NCBI GenBank assembly: GCA_019636735.1
Contig: JAHBWY010000002.1
Location: forward strand, 186,001 to 250,000
Direction of reading: 5' to 3'
From: Phycisphaeraceae bacterium
GTDB lineage: Bacteria > Planctomycetota > Phycisphaerae > Phycisphaerales > SM1A02
DNA: 64,000 nt
This document shows positions 43,898-60,163 of this stretch, in pieces. Made by a program: the position numbers and the translations under genes. Within the stretch, counting starts at the first letter, position 1, and each line of letters opens with the position of its first letter. The notes beneath the pieces are model-generated. The model did no database searches, was not told the DNA's origin, and saw only the letters and a list, made by a program, of their open reading frames with translations.

Positions 43898-45952
43898 ATG
43901 AGGTTCTGTACCACCCTCGCCGCTCTGGGCGTCGCGACGATCGTTGCCGCGTCGACTGCCGGAGCACAAACTCAGATCTTCGGATCCGGCGCTGCCGGGC
44001 CGAACTTCTTCAACCCACAGGGCGCCAACGCTGGTGTCCGCGTCTACAACAACTGCTTCGTCGAGCTTCCGCCCAGCGCCACACAGGCGGAGATCACCGA
44101 GGCGCGTCTCACGCTCTTCCGCCTTGCCAATGCACCGGCGGTGAACATCGAGCTCTTCGCGGTCGAAATGACCTTCGATGGCACCGCGTTCAACATTGGT
44201 ACCCAGACGAGCCTTGGTGTGGTGTCCCTGCCTGAGCAGGGCGCGGCAGGCAACTTCACGATCAATGCCATCCCCGCTTCGCCGGTGACACTGACGCTTG
44301 AGACCGTGTCGAACCCTGGCTTGGGCGGCTTCTGGATCGCTTGGAACGAAGTGAGCGGCGCCGTCGGCACCAACCAGCAGGGCGCACGAACCGCGGGTGC
44401 TCCGGCCATCGGTGCCAGCATCAACGGCTTCGGCATGTTCAACTTCAATGGCTCGGGCATCTTCGAGGCGTTCTTTGGATTCGGCGCCGGCGTGCCCGCG
44501 CGCTTCATGGTTGATGTCTTCGGTTCGGTGGTCGGCGGAAGTTCGTGTGTCGGCCCGACTCCGAACTACTTCGAGCCGGAGCCCTGCGGCGACGACTTCA
44601 ACGGCGGCTGCAACTCGCCGCCCTTCACCCCGGTCGACATCATCAGTCCGAACCAGATCATCGCCGGCACCTTCTGGGCCGACGCTGACACGCGCGACAC
44701 CGACTGGTATGAGTTCACCACCACCGAGCCGACGAACCTGACCGTGGAGATCTACTCCGACGGACCAGGCGCGGCGATCCTGGTCGATGCGATCTGCCCG
44801 CCGACGGTCATTGCGGTGACCGGCTTTGGCTGCCCCGGAGTTCTGACCTTCGACTGCCTGCCGGCTGGCACCTATCGGATCGTGGCGCTGATGACCGTGT
44901 TCAACGGTTTCCCCTGCGGATCCGGTGATGTGAACGAGTACACGCTCGTCGTCAGCAATGAACCGGCCGAGTGTGATCCGATCTGTGGCGCTGGCCAGGA
45001 TTGCTGCGAGGTCTCCGAGACCCCGGGCTGCTCCGATGAGATCTGCTGCGACCTCGTCTGCTCGGTCGATTCGTTCTGCTGCCTGATCGCCTGGGACTTC
45101 CTCTGCACGCAGTTGGCCGCCGACTTCTGCGGCCTGCCGTGCCCCGGTATCTGCGAGCTCAGCGGCAATGACTGCTGCGCCGCGGCGACCACCCCCGGCT
45201 GCAGCGATCCAACCTGCTGCGAGTTCATCTGTCTGCTCGATCCCTTCTGCTGCGACACCGCGTGGGATCAGCTCTGCGCCGATCAGGCTCTCGAGTTCTG
45301 CGAGACCTGCACTCCGCCTGAGTGCCCCTTCACCTGCACCGGTACCGCCGAGGGCGAGCCGTGCGGCGAGGACACCAACGGCGGCTGCAACTCGGTCTTC
45401 CCTGTCTTCGGCGTGGTGAACTGCAACGAGACGATCTGTGGTACGGCGTGGGCCTCTGGCGGCACGCGTGACACCGATTGGTATGTCCTCGACCTTGCCG
45501 ATGAGACTGAGATCACCGTGACCATCACCTCGCAGCTCCCGATGGTCATCGGCATCGTGAACACCACGGATTGTGCGACGGCCACCGAGCTCAATCCGTT
45601 CGCGGCCGGTGATTTCTGCGGCACGGCGACCTTCACGGTCACGCTGCCGGCCGGTACGCACTGGGTCTTCGCGGCTCCCGCGGTCTTCAACGGCTTCCCC
45701 TGCGGCAGCGGCAACAACGACTACGCGTTGACCGTGAGCTGTGCAAGCGGGCCCGTCTGCACGGAGAACCCCGACCAGAGCGGCGACGGCTGCGTGAGTG
45801 GTGCGGACATCGCCATCGTGCTCGGCAACTGGAACCCCACCACCCCCGGCACCCCGGGCAGCCCCGGCGATGTGAACTGCGATGGTCTCGTCAGCGGTGC
45901 TGACATCGCGGTGATCCTCGGCGCGTGGCTCACGGGTCCGAACTGCCCGTAA
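43898..45952 (+). CDS. Large secreted Cys-rich protein with two PPC-like domains and dockerin-like tail
   Basis: The protein has 684 residues from the ATG at 43898, with GAGGAG about 10 bases upstream and a clear signal peptide ending ASTAGAQ. A beta-rich N-terminal domain (about 25-215) is unrecognised. Two domains resembling bacterial pre-peptidase C-terminal folds share EPCG-x-D-x-NGGCN and DTDWY and flank two 12-Cys modules (DNA 44972-45130 and 45140-45301). The modules have the pattern CC-x3-C-x5-CC-x3-WD-x2-C. The last 60 residues are two Ca-loop units ending GADIAVILGAWLTGPNCP, nearly identical to the tail of the 48743 gene. It is probably extracellular or surface-held; enzymatic function is not apparent. 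Confidence 0.85.
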   Translation: MRFCTTLAALGVATIVAASTAGAQTQIFGSGAAGPNFFNPQGANAGVRVYNNCFVELPPSATQAEITEARLTLFRLANAPAVNIELFAVEMTFDGTAFNIGTQTSLGVVSLPEQGAAGNFTINAIPASPVTLTLETVSNPGLGGFWIAWNEVSGAVGTNQQGARTAGAPAIGASINGFGMFNFNGSGIFEAFFGFGAGVPARFMVDVFGSVVGGSSCVGPTPNYFEPEPCGDDFNGGCNSPPFTPVDIISPNQIIAGTFWADADTRDTDWYEFTTTEPTNLTVEIYSDGPGAAILVDAICPPTVIAVTGFGCPGVLTFDCLPAGTYRIVALMTVFNGFPCGSGDVNEYTLVVSNEPAECDPICGAGQDCCEVSETPGCSDEICCDLVCSVDSFCCLIAWDFLCTQLAADFCGLPCPGICELSGNDCCAAATTPGCSDPTCCEFICLLDPFCCDTAWDQLCADQALEFCETCTPPECPFTCTGTAEGEPCGEDTNGGCNSVFPVFGVVNCNETICGTAWASGGTRDTDWYVLDLADETEITVTITSQLPMVIGIVNTTDCATATELNPFAAGDFCGTATFTVTLPAGTHWVFAAPAVFNGFPCGSGNNDYALTVSCASGPVCTENPDQSGDGCVSGADIAIVLGNWNPTTPGTPGSPGDVNCDGLVSGADIAVILGAWLTGPNCP

Positions 45953-45989
45953 TCCGGATCTCCAATCCGGTCCACTCCTGTGGAATCAT

Positions 45990-46020
45990 GGGCCCCTCGG
46001 CTTCGGCCGGGGGGCCCTTT
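45990..46020 (+). terminator. TTCG-tetraloop terminator after the Cys-rich gene
   Basis: GGGCCCCTCGGC-TTCG-GCCGGGGGGCCC forms a 12-bp stem (one T-G pair) with a TTCG tetraloop, followed by TTTCTCTT. It lies 37 bp after the stop of the 43898 gene. Confidence 0.88.
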
Positions 46021-46288
46021 CTCTTGCGCCTTGTCTGCGCCCCGCTTGCGCCCCCGCTCTCGCTCGGTCGGGGGCAGTGAACAGCCGCCCTTCGGGGGGC
46101 CGCCGGGCCAATTCCCTTGTTCTTGCGCTGTGTCGGGGGCAGGGTCTGTGTGCATCAGCCGAGGCTTCGCGCGGAAGCCGCTCGATTCATGAGCGAGTTC
46201 GAGCGGAGCGGGGTGCGCAGGCCGTCACGCGCCGCGCTTGGAAGCGTGAGCGCGTCGAGATCCCCGGATCCTCGCCACCGGCGTCAGG
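46021..46288. other. Intergenic stretch with no recognised feature
   Basis: Between the TTCG terminator and the convergent DUF1573 gene, 268 bp hold no plausible gene, repeat or RNA. Short open frames here lack ribosome-binding sites and codon bias. Confidence 0.6.
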
Positions 46289-47458
46289 TCATGCGTCGTC
46301 CGGCACGGCCTTGCAGTAGACGAGCAGATCTTCGGCGAAGGGGCGCGCTTCCTCAGGTGAAGTCAGGTCGAAGCGCACGGGGAAGAGAAGCACTCCGCTG
46401 GCGCCCGCCTTCGGAGTGAGGCGCACGGTGACCACGGAATTCTCTCCGTCGAACTTCTGCTCCAGGAGCTCCGCGACGATGTCACTGCGTGTGCTGGTGA
46501 CGCGCTGCACCGTCAGATTGCCCCGGGGCATGACGGCCTTCTTGATCTCGATCTCGAAGGTTCCTGGCTTGCCCGGCGAAATCACCCCCGCGTTCGCCCT
46601 GAACTCGGCGAACTGGATCCTCGGACGGATGTGGGTGCACTTGTGGCGCACCCGCATGTCGATGAGCGGCGCATCCTCACGGTCGGTCTCGATGATCAGG
46701 TAGCGCGGCATCGAGTCGCAGTCCCGCGCCGAGACATCGTAGCGCACGCGATAGGAGGCCTTTGGAGGCTGCGACGGATCCCAATCGAGGAACTGCGGCG
46801 GCTTGGCACCGACGCTGAGGACCCGGAAAGGCTTGCCGTCGAGTGTGCCCACGGTCACCTCGCCGCGCACGCGCGATGGATCAGTGTCGGCATCGATGAA
46901 GGGGTCCCACGAACCGCCCGGCTTGTTCTGAGCGACGGCGCGGACCGAATACACCACCTCGGCGCGGAGCTCGACGCGAAGCGGCGTGTCGAGGCCTTCC
47001 ACGATCAGGCGGACATCGGCCATCTTGACGCCGGTCGAACTGACCTTCATCGCGAGCGGGAAAGTCAATGAATCGCGGGCGGGAATGACCTTTCCGTCGA
47101 GATCAACGGTGGTGCACTGACAGGATGGAACAGCCCGGAGAACGCGGACCGGACGATCCGTGTCGTTGACGATCTTCGCCTCGGCGGAGAGGTCGGTGTG
47201 AGGGGCGACGAATCCGAAGTTGACGAGGGCGGGCTCGACCCGAACTGGCGCTGCTGGTGCAGCGGGGCGGCGAGCGGGCGGAGTCGTGGCTCCCTGGCCG
47301 GGTCGTGCTCCGGGTACTTGAGCGAGGGCGTCTGACTGCGAGGAGTCAAGTGGCGCGACGGCGGAAGCCGCGGTGTCCTGCGATGACTCGGAGGCATCGG
47401 CGCAGGCGAGCAGGTTGCCTGTCAATGCCAGGGCGAGCAGCACTTCGATCGTCTTCAT
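46289..47458 (-). CDS. DUF1573 lipoprotein
   Basis: This 389-residue protein has a lipoprotein signal peptide with lipobox LLAC (Cys at residue 19), followed by a Ser/Pro/Ala-rich spacer. A DUF1573 immunoglobulin-like domain begins at about residue 75, marked by VNFGFVAPHTDLSAEAKIVN and the conserved PSCQCTTVDL. The rest (about 170-389) is beta-rich and may contain further Ig-like units. DUF1573 proteins are common in planctomycetes and Bacteroidetes, with no proven role. It is anchored to a membrane leaflet by lipid. It is divergent from the MDR oxidoreductase with only 27 bp between start codons, so their promoters must overlap neighbouring coding sequence. Confidence 0.9.
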   Translation of the reverse strand: MKTIEVLLALALTGNLLACADASESSQDTAASAVAPLDSSQSDALAQVPGARPGQGATTPPARRPAAPAAPVRVEPALVNFGFVAPHTDLSAEAKIVNDTDRPVRVLRAVPSCQCTTVDLDGKVIPARDSLTFPLAMKVSSTGVKMADVRLIVEGLDTPLRVELRAEVVYSVRAVAQNKPGGSWDPFIDADTDPSRVRGEVTVGTLDGKPFRVLSVGAKPPQFLDWDPSQPPKASYRVRYDVSARDCDSMPRYLIIETDREDAPLIDMRVRHKCTHIRPRIQFAEFRANAGVISPGKPGTFEIEIKKAVMPRGNLTVQRVTSTRSDIVAELLEQKFDGENSVVTVRLTPKAGASGVLLFPVRFDLTSPEEARPFAEDLLVYCKAVPDDA

Positions 47459-47485
47459 CGAGTCGTGATCCTACACTCGCGGCCC

Positions 47486-48517
47486 ATGCGAGCCATTGAA
47501 ATCACGCGCCTGGGAGACCCTGTTGCGCCGAACATACGATTCACGACCGATCGTCCTGAACCAGTGCCCGGTCCCGGTGAAGTTCGTGTTCGGACCGAAG
47601 CGTCCGCAATGAATCACCTCGACCTCTGGGGTGGGCGCGGCCTTCCGGGAGTCGAGGTCGAATGGCCCTTTACCAGTGGCTCCGATGGCGTCGGAGTTGT
47701 CGATCGCGTTGGGCCCGGGGTCGATGAAGCATGGATCGGCAAGCGTGTGATTCTGAACGCCGCGATCATGCATTCACCGAAGCCGAAGCCGGGCGAGCGA
47801 CCGGCTGGCGAAGACATCGAGATGATCGGTGAGCACCGCCCCGGAACGCACGCAGAGTTCTTCGTGGCGCCCGCGGCGAATCTGATCGAAGTCGGCGACA
47901 GTGATCCAGTCGAGGCTGCGGCCTTCGGGCTGACGCACCTGACTGCATGGAGGATGCTGATCTCGCGCGGCCGAGTCCGCCCTGGTCAGAGTGTGCTCAT
48001 CCCTGGTATCGGCGGCGGAGTTGCACTCGCGGCGCTCGGTCTGGCCAGGCACCTCGGGTGCATCACGATCGTCACGAGCCGGAGCGCAGAGAAGCTCGAG
48101 AGGGCGAAGGCGCTCGGGGCGGATCATGCCATTCTCGACTCGGGCGCCGATTGGTCCCGAGAGGTCCGCGCTGCGACCGGCCGCCGGGGCGTCGATCTCT
48201 GCATCGAGTCAGTCGGAAAGGCAGTCTTCGGCGCGTGCCTCAAGAGCCTGGCCCGCGGGGGAACGCTCGTAACATGCGGAACGACCACGGGCGGCGATGC
48301 GACTTGCGATCTCACCCGCGTCTTCTGGAATCAGCTCTCCGTGGTCGGGTCGACGATGGGAACCATGGAGGAGTTCGCCCAAGTGCTGGCGCTCTTCCGT
48401 GCCGGCCTGGTCAGGCCGGTGGTCGATTCCATTCACCACGCTGAGCATGGGCAGGAAGCATTCCGACGGCTCGAGTCGGGTGCTCAGTTCGGGAAAGTCG
48501 TGATCGTCTGGCAATAA
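47486..48517 (+). CDS. Zinc-type medium-chain dehydrogenase/reductase
   Basis: This 343-residue MDR-family oxidoreductase has an N-terminal GroES-like domain (PGPGEVRVRTEASAMNHLD) and a Rossmann domain with the NAD(P) loop IPGIGGGVALAALGLA near residues 178-191. The catalytic-zinc Cys of classical alcohol dehydrogenases is replaced (ASAMNHLDLW). Together with the GHE position being absent, this points to a quinone-reductase-like or other non-zinc member. The substrate is unknown. The ATG at 47486 is preferred over an in-frame start 21 bp upstream because it gives the family's typical MRAIEI start. Confidence 0.87.
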   Translation: MRAIEITRLGDPVAPNIRFTTDRPEPVPGPGEVRVRTEASAMNHLDLWGGRGLPGVEVEWPFTSGSDGVGVVDRVGPGVDEAWIGKRVILNAAIMHSPKPKPGERPAGEDIEMIGEHRPGTHAEFFVAPAANLIEVGDSDPVEAAAFGLTHLTAWRMLISRGRVRPGQSVLIPGIGGGVALAALGLARHLGCITIVTSRSAEKLERAKALGADHAILDSGADWSREVRAATGRRGVDLCIESVGKAVFGACLKSLARGGTLVTCGTTTGGDATCDLTRVFWNQLSVVGSTMGTMEEFAQVLALFRAGLVRPVVDSIHHAEHGQEAFRRLESGAQFGKVVIVWQ

Positions 48518-48607
48518 CCTGATTTCGGTCCTTCGGGACGAGGGCGTGGACCCCGGGCGAGACCGGCGCGAATCTCTCTGGAAACTCGCAATGGCCCTGC
48601 CCGTCCA

Positions 48608-48636
48608 TTGGATTCGTGTGATGATCGGGTTACATT
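48608..48636 (+). promoter_or_regulatory. Promoter candidate of the 48743 secreted-protein gene
   Basis: TTGGAT (48608-48613) and TACATT (48631-48636) are separated by exactly 17 bp. The transcript would start near 48643, giving a leader of about 100 bases before the ATG. Confidence 0.5.
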
Positions 48637-48742
48637 AGAGGCGATCTCGTCAGGCCGACCGCGTTGGCCCGGCGTTCCATGGTCGTGGTGCCATGGCTCG
48701 GGAGGGGCGGTTGGGGCTGAGATTCAAGGAGGACATGCGTTC

Positions 48743-50818
48743 ATGGACAAGAGATTGATTCTCGGCGCCGGTGTCGGCGCCCTCGCACTCTTCGCGGCAG
48801 GTGCTGCGAATGCAGGCAGCAGTTGCCTGGCGGTGCAATCGAGCCCGATTCTGAACAACGATGACTGTTTGCAGGCTGGTGCGGTGGCCAATTATGTGGA
48901 CCCCAACGGCGGCTGCAACTTCACGCCAGCTCAACTTCAGGATGTCGGGGTGCTCTCGGTGCCCGGACTGCTCGAACTCACGGGAACGGTCGGAACCTTC
49001 GTGCCGTTCGGCGGAACCGCACACACCAGCCGCGACCTTGACTGGTACACCTTCACGCTCAATCAGGGCGCGACGGTCAGCATCAATGCTCGCATGAACA
49101 ATGCGGACGGCGAGGGCGGCGCGCCCGGATTCGTCAGCTCGGTGCTCTTCCTGATCCAGGGCGGATCGTGCCCGGCGGGGACCGTTCTGTACGGCGCAGC
49201 GGGGTCTTCCTGCAATCACATCATGCCGCAGTTCATCCTGCCGGCTGGAACCTACACCTTCGTCATCACCACTCCGTTCGAGGTTGACTCTGCCGTCCCG
49301 TTCTACAACTGCCCGGCCGAGTACCAGGTGTGGATCGACGCTCAGCCGACGCCCTTCGGTCCAATCTGCGCTGCGGCGACCGCGGGTTGCGCCGAAGTTC
49401 ACGCGGGTGTGGGCTGCGATGACTTCACCTGCTGCGAGGCCGTCTGCGGCTTCGACTCCAACTGCTGCTTCGTTTCGTGGGATCAGAACTGCGTCGATCT
49501 GGCGGTGTCGGAGTGCGGCTACTTCATCTATAGCTGCGACAATCCCGGACCGGCGAATGACTGCGCGTTCTCGCCGATCCTGGTGCAGCCAGGTGATGTG
49601 GTCTTTGCTGACACCACGGGTGCCACCACCGACGGCCCGAACGGCCCGAGCAGCCTCTGCGCGGTCGATATCGGTCTGGACATCTGGTATGTCATCAAGG
49701 CCCCGTCCAACGGCGAGCTCTCGGTTGACGGCTGCAACCTCGACTTCGACTCGGTGATCGCCGTCTACGACATCGGCACCGACCTCGGCGCGTTTGATCC
49801 GTCGCTCCTGGGAACTTACCCGAGCGCCTGCGCCGATGACACCTGCGGTCAGGTGGCTGGACCATCACGCATCACCATCGTCAATGCCAATGCGAACCAC
49901 TACTACCTGGTTCGGATTGGAAGCTGGTTCAACGCGCAGTTCCCGCCGGAGTCCGGTTCAGGCAATGTGGCCTTCGACTTCGACGGCGTGATCTTCAACA
50001 CCGGTTCGCAGCGGGCCATCCGCAACCAGGACACCGGCGCGCTGACCAACCTCGGTCTCTCCTCGGGCAACCTCGGTGGAGCGAATACCCGACGCTGGTC
50101 GGCGGTGGCGTTCACTGTGCCGCAGAGCGACTCGGACTATGTGGTCACAAAGATCATCGGCAAGGGATTCATCCCCGCCGGCTGGACCGTCTCGAATCTC
50201 GGCTGGGTGATCTGGAATCGCCTGCCGGGCAACCCGGCTCCGACCGCCGCGGATCAGGTTGCGGCAGGCCTCGTGCCACTCCCGGTCAACTACGACGAGG
50301 CTGATGATGACGCAGCGAACGCCGCGTGGCCGATCGTGATTCCTGAGTCAGAGCGTCCGGTCCTGCCGCCCGGCGACTACTACCTGACTCTCTACGGCGA
50401 CAACGGTGGACCGAATGAGCTCTCCCAGTGGGCGTGGTTCCTCCTCGGGCCAGACGGTGTCCCGCTGCTCGAAGGTGGTCTCCACGGCTGGCGTAGCGCC
50501 ACCGCGGCTGGTGGGTTCCAGTTCTTCCTGCTGCCCGCGGTATGGGCAGTGCAGGTCGGCGACGACCCGAACTGGCTCTACAACAACGCGTTCCGAATCA
50601 TTGGCCAGCCCGTTGAGGCGGCGTGTGTGGAGACCCCTGACCAGAGCGGCAACGGCTGCGTCGACGGTGCGGATATCGCCATCGTTCTCGGCAACTGGAG
50701 TCCGACGACCCCCGGCGTTCCCGGCGCTCCCGGCGATGTCAACTGCGATGGCTTTGTCAGCGGTGCTGACATCGCGGTGATCCTTGGTGCCTGGCTGACT
50801 GGTCCGAACTGCCCGTAA
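48743..50818 (+). CDS. Large secreted Cys-rich protein with dockerin-like tail
   Basis: The protein has 691 residues from the ATG at 48743, with a full AAGGAGG 10 bases upstream, which fixes the start. The signal peptide ends AGAANAG. It has a PPC-like domain with DLDWYTFTL (about 60-200), one Cys module (DNA 49367-49516) and a second beta domain with DIWYVIKAPSNGEL (about 270-420). A further unrecognised region and a dockerin-like tail of two GADIA units follow. The tail matches that of the 43898 protein in 53 of 59 residues by my count. The two genes are likely paralogs whose products share an extracellular location. No catalytic motif is evident. Confidence 0.85.
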   Translation: MDKRLILGAGVGALALFAAGAANAGSSCLAVQSSPILNNDDCLQAGAVANYVDPNGGCNFTPAQLQDVGVLSVPGLLELTGTVGTFVPFGGTAHTSRDLDWYTFTLNQGATVSINARMNNADGEGGAPGFVSSVLFLIQGGSCPAGTVLYGAAGSSCNHIMPQFILPAGTYTFVITTPFEVDSAVPFYNCPAEYQVWIDAQPTPFGPICAAATAGCAEVHAGVGCDDFTCCEAVCGFDSNCCFVSWDQNCVDLAVSECGYFIYSCDNPGPANDCAFSPILVQPGDVVFADTTGATTDGPNGPSSLCAVDIGLDIWYVIKAPSNGELSVDGCNLDFDSVIAVYDIGTDLGAFDPSLLGTYPSACADDTCGQVAGPSRITIVNANANHYYLVRIGSWFNAQFPPESGSGNVAFDFDGVIFNTGSQRAIRNQDTGALTNLGLSSGNLGGANTRRWSAVAFTVPQSDSDYVVTKIIGKGFIPAGWTVSNLGWVIWNRLPGNPAPTAADQVAAGLVPLPVNYDEADDDAANAAWPIVIPESERPVLPPGDYYLTLYGDNGGPNELSQWAWFLLGPDGVPLLEGGLHGWRSATAAGGFQFFLLPAVWAVQVGDDPNWLYNNAFRIIGQPVEAACVETPDQSGNGCVDGADIAIVLGNWSPTTPGVPGAPGDVNCDGFVSGADIAVILGAWLTGPNCP

Positions 50819-57584: not shown

Positions 57585-57856
57585 GCTCGCTCCGAGCCGC
57601 GAGGCGGACGAGGAGCCGGTGGAGGTGTCTGGCGACCCGGGCACTTCGCCACTTATACGCGGGGCGGTACGGCTTTCGCGGTTGAATCGCACTGTCGGTC
57701 TCGGTGAATCTCGCGCGAGGCCGCCGTGTTCGTGCAAGAGTTCCCGAACTATTCCGGTTCAGATCGTGATAAGATCCTGCACGCAGGTCGCTCCTCCAAT
57801 TGTCGTGGGGGCGGACCATGCGAGAACACCTCTCCGGGGGTGGAAGGACTTCCATC

Positions 57857-60163
57857 ATGAAGGGGCAGAATCGTCGGATCGGACCCGTCGGGGTTCGGGC
57901 GTGTTCAGTTGCGCCCATGATTGGCGTGTCGCTGCTGGCCCTTGCCGCCGCGGGTGCGGTTGGCACCACTCGACAGGTGGCTGCGTTCACTCCGCCGTTG
58001 GCCGACTATGGCGATGCGCCGGTCGGCAGCACGACGAGCATGCCGCTCATCCTCGCCTATCCGGGGGTGCTGGCACGCTGGGTGACGAACTTCGATCACA
58101 CCAACCTGGTGCCTGCGACGCCACTCCACGATCACGGCACATGGCTCAAGGTGCCCACCACCTTCCGGCTGGGAACCGTGTCGCCGACGGCGACCTTCGA
58201 TTCGACGCAGACTCCCTCGTCACCAGACAACGACGCGGTGCCGCAGATTCTTCTCTACGCCGTGGGGTCAAACCCGATTGCGGACATCAGGTTCCGAGTG
58301 AGTACCACGGCGGGTCATCCTGCCGACGGCACCTTCTACTTCAACCTCTTCATCGATCAGAATCGTGACGGAGCATGGCGTGAGCTCTACAACGCCTTGA
58401 CGGGACTCCCGCAGGTCGATGGCAATATGGAGCACGCCGTGCGCGACATTCCCATCACCATGGGGCCGGGCGAGACGCGCACCATCACGATCAGCGGCAT
58501 TCGCGTGGAGAATCCGCTCAGTCCGCTGTGGGTTCGCATGGTGGTGAGCAATCGGCAGATTGGCTGCGTCTACTCGGGTTTGGCGAACATCGACCCGAAG
58601 TGCAACTGGCCGCTCCTTCAGAATCAGATCGCGTGGGACGGGACCATGATCGCGGCGCACGATGAGTTCGGAGAGATCGAGGATCACTACCTCGAGTTTT
58701 CGAGCACCTATGGCGGTCCCAATCAGCCCGGCATCTTCATGGCCACGCAGGTTCTCGGCAGCGGTGGCGGAGGAAACGGAGGTCAGCCGCCGAAGCCGGA
58801 GTGCATCATCAGGTTCCGGCGACTTGACCTCATCGTTCCGCAGAAGTGCCCGGTCGTTCGACTCTTCAATCTGAAGGCGCGGCGCTTCAATGTGAACGGT
58901 GGCTGCAACACCGAGCCCGTGCTCTTCGGCATGTACGGTCCGGAGCGGATGACCGGGGTCGTCGGACCGCCGACGATCGCACTCAACCCCGCGGCGACGG
59001 CTCCCGGTGGGCCGTGGATCGCGCCCGGAGCGGTCGATCACACATGCGCCGATGGAACGGTGCTCACCCTTCCCGGTGCGCTGAACGGTCTTCCGCTCTT
59101 GCTCAGCAGCACCATTGCAGCAAAGGACCTGAGCAAGCCGCCGCTGAACCTCTTCACCGTCTGCTTCGACAGTCCGCCGCGACGCTATCGCGCCTACAAG
59201 GTGGAGTTGCTCGCCCTGACCTGCGGCAGCGTGCATGAGAACCGCAGCGTCAATTCCTATCCCGCATCGGCGCAGACCAGCGCGGCCATCGTCGGTGTCG
59301 GCGCCACGAGCGATGAAGTCACCTTCGGTCACGGGGACCTGATCGAGACCTTCATCTCGGTTGATCCGGCGGAGCCGCGGCCATTCCCCGATCCCGACTT
59401 CCTTCTGCACAACTTCATCCTGTTCGATCCGCTGTTCTCCGAGGCGTTCATCGATCCGCTTTGCGCCGCCCCGCTTCCCGAAGCGGCTCCCTTCTCGCTT
59501 CGCCTGGTCAACGCGGCCTATCACACTCGTCCCACCATTCCGAAGCAGACGCGCGCCACCATGGTGGAGTTCTGGACGGCAGGCGAGGCCTTCGACGCGC
59601 AGGTCACTTCAACATCGGGCATGATTTTCTTCGTCGCCCTTCCGACCACCTTCCCCTGCGATTTCGTGCAGACCATCGTGACGCTCCCGGATGACTTTGA
59701 ACTCGACTCCATCACGATCTCGATGGCGGATGGCTGGGTCGACGAGGTCGTCGTGCGCCTCGACGGCATCGAGGACTGCAACCAGAACGGACGGCACGAC
59801 GCGTACGACATCGCCATGGGGCTGAGCATGGACTCGAACCATGACGGAATCCCCGATGAGTGCCAGCCTGACAACCCCTGCGACGGATGGTGCGGCAGCC
59901 AGTCGCCATCCGGCTGCTGGTGTGACCCGGAGTGCCTGAGCTCAGGCGACTGCTGCCCGGGTTTCCAGGGCCTTTGTCCTCAGGTGCCATGCGCCGCGGA
60001 CTTGACCGGCGATGGCCAGGTGAGTGGCGCCGACATCGCAATCATGCTTGGTGCGTGGGGCGCGTGCTCGCCGCCATGCCCCGCCGACATCAACAAGGAT
60101 GGATCGGTGAATGGCGCTGATCTCGCCATTCTGCTCGGTGCATGGGGGCCGTGTCCGCAATAG
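57857..60163 (+). CDS. Large secreted protein with GEVED, TSP3-like, somatomedin-B-like and dockerin-like parts
   Basis: The protein has 768 residues from the ATG at 57857 (GGAAGGA 9 bases upstream). After a signal peptide (MIGVSLLALAAAG) it begins with DYGDAP at residue 50, the usual lead-in to a GEVED domain, whose GEIEDHYLEF motif is near 270. A long unrecognised middle follows. Near the C-terminus are a calcium-loop repeat DCNQNGRHDAYD...DSNHDGIPDEC (TSP3-like, about 640-671) and an eight-Cys unit spaced C-x3-C-x7-C-x-C-x3-C-x5-CC-x6-C (about 673-707), matching somatomedin B. Two dockerin-like units (GADIAIMLGAWG, GADLAILLGAWG) end the protein. It is likely a multidomain extracellular adhesin or matrix protein. 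Confidence 0.85.
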   Translation: MKGQNRRIGPVGVRACSVAPMIGVSLLALAAAGAVGTTRQVAAFTPPLADYGDAPVGSTTSMPLILAYPGVLARWVTNFDHTNLVPATPLHDHGTWLKVPTTFRLGTVSPTATFDSTQTPSSPDNDAVPQILLYAVGSNPIADIRFRVSTTAGHPADGTFYFNLFIDQNRDGAWRELYNALTGLPQVDGNMEHAVRDIPITMGPGETRTITISGIRVENPLSPLWVRMVVSNRQIGCVYSGLANIDPKCNWPLLQNQIAWDGTMIAAHDEFGEIEDHYLEFSSTYGGPNQPGIFMATQVLGSGGGGNGGQPPKPECIIRFRRLDLIVPQKCPVVRLFNLKARRFNVNGGCNTEPVLFGMYGPERMTGVVGPPTIALNPAATAPGGPWIAPGAVDHTCADGTVLTLPGALNGLPLLLSSTIAAKDLSKPPLNLFTVCFDSPPRRYRAYKVELLALTCGSVHENRSVNSYPASAQTSAAIVGVGATSDEVTFGHGDLIETFISVDPAEPRPFPDPDFLLHNFILFDPLFSEAFIDPLCAAPLPEAAPFSLRLVNAAYHTRPTIPKQTRATMVEFWTAGEAFDAQVTSTSGMIFFVALPTTFPCDFVQTIVTLPDDFELDSITISMADGWVDEVVVRLDGIEDCNQNGRHDAYDIAMGLSMDSNHDGIPDECQPDNPCDGWCGSQSPSGCWCDPECLSSGDCCPGFQGLCPQVPCAADLTGDGQVSGADIAIMLGAWGACSPPCPADINKDGSVNGADLAILLGAWGPCPQ

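Follow-up and report, generated by a model that had tools for sequence, protein, structure and literature searches.

A predicted extracellular cysteine-rich mini-domain almost confined to one planctomycete family

Two proteins encoded on a 64,000-nucleotide stretch of a Phycisphaeraceae bacterium genome (contig JAHBWY010000002.1, positions 186,001 to 250,000; hereafter the window, numbered from its first nucleotide) contain a short unit rich in cysteine (Cys), which raises the question of what this unit is and what it might contribute to the proteins that carry it. An earlier reading made from the sequence alone (the sequence-only reading) had described a repeated 12-Cys module and proposed an autonomous, disulfide-bonded domain of no named family. 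Translation confirmed three module copies, at the positions and with the Cys order that had been proposed:

44972..45130, + strand: module copy 1, 53 aa, 12 Cys (translation, DNA pattern, AlphaFold2 model)
45140..45301, + strand: module copy 2, in tandem with copy 1, 54 aa, 12 Cys (translation, DNA pattern, AlphaFold2 model)
49367..49516, + strand: module copy 3, the majority 10-Cys form, 50 aa, 10 Cys (translation, DNA pattern)

The spacing pattern C-x4-CC-x3-C-x5-CC-x3-WD-x2-C, searched in the DNA, matched the window three times, exactly at these copies, with 0.00 matches expected (none in 100 dinucleotide-preserving shuffles of the window). Neither this pattern nor the window translations revealed a module in the reading frames between the two host proteins. 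To judge from its sequence, the module is an extracellular mini-domain without a name in the curated libraries, as had been proposed: the 36 units of the same genome used as alignment base gave no shared or credible match in Pfam-A, NCBIfam or PHROGs (the best stray Pfam hit, to one unit, had E 0.029), and a profile search retrieved 0 PDB sequences. The literature, mainly at the level of titles and abstracts, yielded no publication evidently describing it.

In the 36-unit alignment the module spans about 53 residues and has a fixed core of nine Cys and the pair W-D, separated by loops of variable composition. A larger set of 676 unique units from 190 proteins showed that C33, C42 and W38 are never lost, that 89% of units have a tenth Cys (Cup) 3-9 residues before the first core Cys, and that C9, which completes the first CC pair, is a minority form present in 19%. 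In copy 1, core positions C8, C17, C22, C23, C27, C33, C34, C42 and C50 are residues 11, 20, 25, 26, 30, 36, 37, 45 and 53, Cup is residue 5, and the extra Cys are residues 1 and 12. The designation as a 12-Cys module thus holds for both tandem copies but not for the family, which has a core of ten Cys and only a minority of 12-Cys forms; likewise copy 3, thought to lack the entire first CC pair, keeps C8 and misses just C9 and the second upstream Cys. Units with C9 also tend to have a second Cys upstream (odds ratio 2.8, p = 4e-7), a tendency that fits a sixth, optional disulfide in copies 1 and 2. A distinct subtype was seen at loci L049, L063, L157 and L041, in which C22 and/or C23 are swapped for a Cys at position 25 (C-V-C); units of the C-x6-C-V-C shape are present in planctomycetes (L049, L063 and L157) and may resemble a Myxococcota variant of that shape.

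The module is nearly restricted to one planctomycete family. The 3.43-Mb genome containing the window has 39 module matches in about ten proteins (tblastn, copy 1 as query), among them a protein in which the profile matched 17 copies, several subtilases and one protein with lamin-tail-like repeats. When 294 genomes of the phylum were sampled, matches came from this genome and one other of its family, with none in the 292 genomes outside it. Sampling of the order gave matches in 109 of 301 genomes, and by our count from the list these comprised 107 of the 117 genomes of the window's family and 2 of 184 elsewhere; module numbers per genome are given there as at most "at least 22", and first-look candidates reach 142. 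A scan of genome contigs found at least 119 loci, nearly all confirmed by the profile, so that the prediction of many homologues in secreted Phycisphaerae proteins was borne out; among the matches listed, nearly all titles were planctomycete, including doubtful names of metagenome-assembled genomes (Kuenenia, Singulisphaera). A Kitasatospora hit (L067) was a chance match to the pattern and had no profile match.

Occurrences farther afield were few. A metagenome-assembled Wenzhouxiangella genome encodes (L042:2296-2694) a gammaproteobacterial protein of 133 aa with a signal peptide, one module as its sole recognisable globular domain and an IPTL-CTERM-like tail (PF18203, E 0.0038, below cut-off). 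Lateral transfer is possible, as is mis-binning, since the contig measures 4.7 kb; IPTL-CTERM is a proteobacterial sorting signal, which speaks against mis-binning. Roughly 300 other genomes sampled from the phylum of Wenzhouxiangella gave one weak match. The spacing pattern matched a single viral contig, a 61.7-kb IMG/VR sequence in which a Cys-rich protein (L158:3-3872; its open frame has 3128 codons in the complete record) contains one module together with GACC-type Cys repeats. This contig could come from a virus that borrowed the module, or it could be a piece of host DNA. The C-V-C variant pattern was not found in viral contigs, and the 102 stretches that one protein used as query matched there included no relative. 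Phage records held no module match, and the lone plasmid match was at chance level (E 0.5) within a CoA-transferase gene.

The pattern of Cys losses supports a specific set of predicted disulfides. Co-loss was assessed across the 676 units by Fisher tests, with p-values uncorrected for relatedness. Cup and C23 were lost together in 25 units (p = 6e-16; 21 clusters at 60% identity), C8 and C17 in nine (p = 3e-14; 7 clusters) and C27 and C34 in five (p = 2e-11; 4 clusters), and loss of C22 was accompanied by an absent or displaced C50 in 17 of 19 cases (p = 1e-12; 11 clusters). In a later set of 245 units the pairs Cup-C23, C8-C17, C22-C50 and C27-C34 gave p-values of 1e-6, 2e-9, 1e-4 and 0.004, respectively, the last from one unit. 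With these four pairs placed, C33-C42 is assigned by elimination alone, both residues being invariant. The ten Cys would thus form five disulfides in the order 1-5, 2-3, 4-10, 6-8 and 7-9 (Cup-C23, C8-C17, C22-C50, C27-C34 and C33-C42), in agreement with the disulfide-bonded domain that had been proposed.

AlphaFold2 modelled a single unit confidently as three helices (residues 23-32, 35-38 and 43-52) from 36 alignment rows, with a predicted local distance difference test score (pLDDT) of 85.4 and a predicted template modelling score (pTM) of 0.69. The window tandem, modelled from 59 rows (pLDDT 90.8, pTM 0.59), had the same helices in both units and a linker of pLDDT about 80; the high unit pLDDT and the pTM of 0.59 suggest two firm units that are loosely oriented to each other. 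D22, D33 and D42 of copy 1 directly precede the three helices of the model and may act as helix caps. Most simply, the invariant Trp would serve core packing and the Asp at each helix start would be a cap. Foldseek, a method weak on 53-residue domains, returned no PDB match for unit or tandem, and its best match in BFVD had an E of only 1.8; for so small a domain, this null result does not prove a new fold.

Several observations weigh against the disulfide assignment. The units are related, and the Fisher p-values therefore exaggerate their independence; C8 is lost while C17 is kept in five clusters; there is covariation between C22 and C23 as well (p = 2e-7), to which the C-V-C variant contributes; and Cys parity is only weakly even (88/151, p = 0.05). 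The oxidation machinery points the same way. VKOR, DsbB, DSBA and Thioredoxin_4 had no match in the 97% complete genome carrying the window, where divergent enzymes could escape such a search. In the 42 genomes present in both listings, a subset uncorrected for phylogeny, at least 22 modules were counted in 11 of 17 genomes without VKOR vs 4 of 25 with it (p = 0.0025); module-rich genomes have VKOR less often, the reverse of expectation.

Within the family, VKOR was detected in 39 of 101 genomes and DSBA in 53 of 101, and their coordinates adjoin in one frame of 600-700 codons, which suggests VKOR-DSBA fusions. Such VKOR-DsbA-like fusions appear commoner in the module-poor genomes. A search for the sulfhydryl oxidase Evr1_Alr was uninformative, as its control had no match anywhere. 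How so many apparent disulfides are folded in a genome without a recognised oxidase is a question raised by these data. It is conceivable, although we think it rather unlikely, that the domain is specific to this lineage, that both its fold and its disulfide connectivity are new, that it has expanded to dozens or more copies per genome, and that at least some module-rich members oxidise it by means other than the known VKOR/DsbB/DsbA machinery; if true, this would imply that these planctomycetes have a route of disulfide formation not recognised so far.

The company that the module keeps was surveyed with Pfam and NCBIfam in 61 non-redundant module proteins. The claim that it always lies beside PPC-like domains did not hold, PPC being found in 2 proteins and the PPC-like GBD_T9SS_assoc in 12, and several carriers consist of a signal peptide and modules alone. 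Catalytic Pfam domains were Peptidase_S8 (8 proteins), M43 (3), M12 (2) and a trypsin-like domain (1); other domains were Lectin_C, FG-GAP and P_proprotein (2 each), and LTD and VWA (1 each). C-terminal tails were assigned to Dockerin_1 in 17 proteins (Pfam) and to dockerin_GC in 10 (NCBIfam), and our own model built from five sequences placed a dockerin-like tail at the end of 83 of 154 C-terminally complete module proteins. The module occurs singly, paired, in arrays of up to 20 and beside unrelated domains, in keeping with the autonomy that had been proposed for it. Arrays of 15-20 units were present in each of 16 proteins, and those at L058, L109, L133 and L142 have little beyond a signal peptide and 16-17 units and contain about 180 Cys. 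The order of the units is shared between arrays in part: 34 of 120 array pairs were co-linear at p<0.01, with a diagonal mean identity of up to 74%. By their predicted signal peptides the host proteins are exported; a crude signal-peptide rule accepted 118 of 119 complete module proteins and also 63 of 119 shuffled controls, and therefore has only moderate specificity.

On balance, the module probably serves as a disulfide-stapled, autonomously folding spacer or display unit of a dockerin-tailed secretome, a role that fits its single insertion, its pure arrays and its many unrelated partners. With five disulfides tying its three short helices together, it would be a protease-resistant stapled unit. 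A single module between beta domains would separate and stiffen secreted proteases and binding proteins, and trains of 15-20 modules would form a stalk, like beads on short linkers. Because about half of the module proteins have dockerin-like tails, many of them probably dock to a putative cohesin-bearing surface complex, similar in kind to the "planctosome" proposed for a related lineage.

The main rival to a spacer is an adhesion or recognition module, in which a stapled frame would present the variable loops to glycans, minerals or proteins and arrays would provide avidity. The contrast of varying loops with a fixed core, the C-type lectin, FG-GAP, VWA and galactose-binding-like domains of some hosts, and the way in which a given unit keeps its identity across genomes in related arrays, so that units may not be interchangeable, are all compatible with recognition. 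We nonetheless regard it as a possibility of low probability, given that no candidate pocket is conserved except the W/D pair, which is plausibly structural, and that the module adjoins many unrelated catalytic domains and also forms pure arrays. Proteases among the partners (Peptidase_S8 in 8 of the 61 proteins, plus M43, M12 and trypsin-like domains) would suit an inhibitor or pro-region mini-domain that controls fused subtilases and metalloproteases, but no protease domain was seen in the majority of carriers, among them the two window proteins and the scanned array proteins, and this function is very improbable.

Two further explanations turn on the Cys themselves. The module could cross-link the envelope into a disulfide-linked protein coat, like the Cys-rich YTV proteins: planctomycete walls have been described as protein sacculi with disulfides, YTV proteins occur in Planctomycetales wall preparations (PMC2754498, PMC8567305), and the pure arrays offer about 180 Cys each. 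Co-loss pairs, however, mostly fall within one unit, which would leave few Cys free, many carriers have a multidomain make-up that includes proteases or dockerins, and the YTV motif is absent from the 36 aligned units; we consider cross-linking improbable. A metallothionein-like metal store would account for 10-12 Cys in 53 residues and for a genome from which the known enzymes of oxidative folding are apparently missing, yet pair-specific losses suit disulfides better than metal clusters, the proteins have signal peptides, and W and Asp are conserved as in a folded core, so that we attach hardly any likelihood to it.

Among known systems, thrombospondin type 3 and EGF-like repeats are small repeated modules that space the domains of secreted proteins, but the present module has no Pfam match, another Cys order and a predicted helical fold. 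The repeats myxo_disulf_rpt (TIGR02232) and DUF4215 are likewise short and Cys-rich in secreted bacterial proteins; one of the 61 module proteins also has a repeat of this type, but these profiles match no module unit. YTV cell-wall proteins, described solely from Planctomycetales, resemble the module proteins in being Cys-rich, exported and lineage-restricted in planctomycetes (PMC8567305); they differ in that the module lacks the YTV motif, occurs in Phycisphaerales-type genomes and enters many architectures. The "planctosome", a cohesin/dockerin peptidase complex, was proposed for freshwater Nemodlikiaceae of the Phycisphaerae in a text that does not mention cysteine (PMC6461901). Module proteins share with it dockerin tails, LTD, P-domains and M12 peptidases; Nemodlikiaceae are a related lineage of the same class. 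The module is a likely structural component of the proposed dockerin-based surface complex, and it adds an unannotated domain family and a testable disulfide map to the little-characterised secretomes of a lineage known mostly from metagenomes.

In the window, the two host proteins combine modules with PPC-like regions and dockerin-like tails, a dockerin (dockerin_GC, NF041540, or Dockerin_1) being a separate domain on the same proteins and the module not a dockerin. Their features, several of them matched below the Pfam cut-off, are:

43898..45952, + strand: host protein 1, in which a signal peptide and an N-terminal region are followed by a PPC-like segment, two modules, another PPC-like region and a dockerin-like tail
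43898..43966, + strand: probable signal peptide of protein 1 (MRFCTTLAALGVATIVAASTAGA), assigned by eye, SignalP not used
44696..44758, + strand: PPC-like segment of protein 1 (PF04151, E 0.02, below cut-off)
45773..45916, + strand: dockerin-like C-terminal tail of protein 1 (PF00404, E 0.0015, below cut-off)
48743..50818, + strand: host protein 2, in which a signal peptide precedes a PPC-like domain, a single module, a PPC-like/GBD region, then a C-terminal region and a dockerin-like tail
48743..48814, + strand: probable signal peptide of protein 2 (MDKRLILGAGVGALALFAAGAANA), assigned by eye
49037..49267, + strand: PPC-like domain of protein 2 (PF04151, E 0.0025, below cut-off)
49667..49771, + strand: PPC-like region of protein 2 (PF23759 GBD_T9SS_assoc, E 0.0098, below cut-off)
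50639..50782, + strand: dockerin-like C-terminal tail of protein 2 (PF00404, Dockerin_1, E 0.0063, below cut-off)

The tail of protein 1 had no dockerin_GC match at E 0.01. About 50 dockerin_GC tails were found elsewhere in the genome, and the window itself has a dockerin_GC match at 59990-60145, inside the frame 57800-60163.

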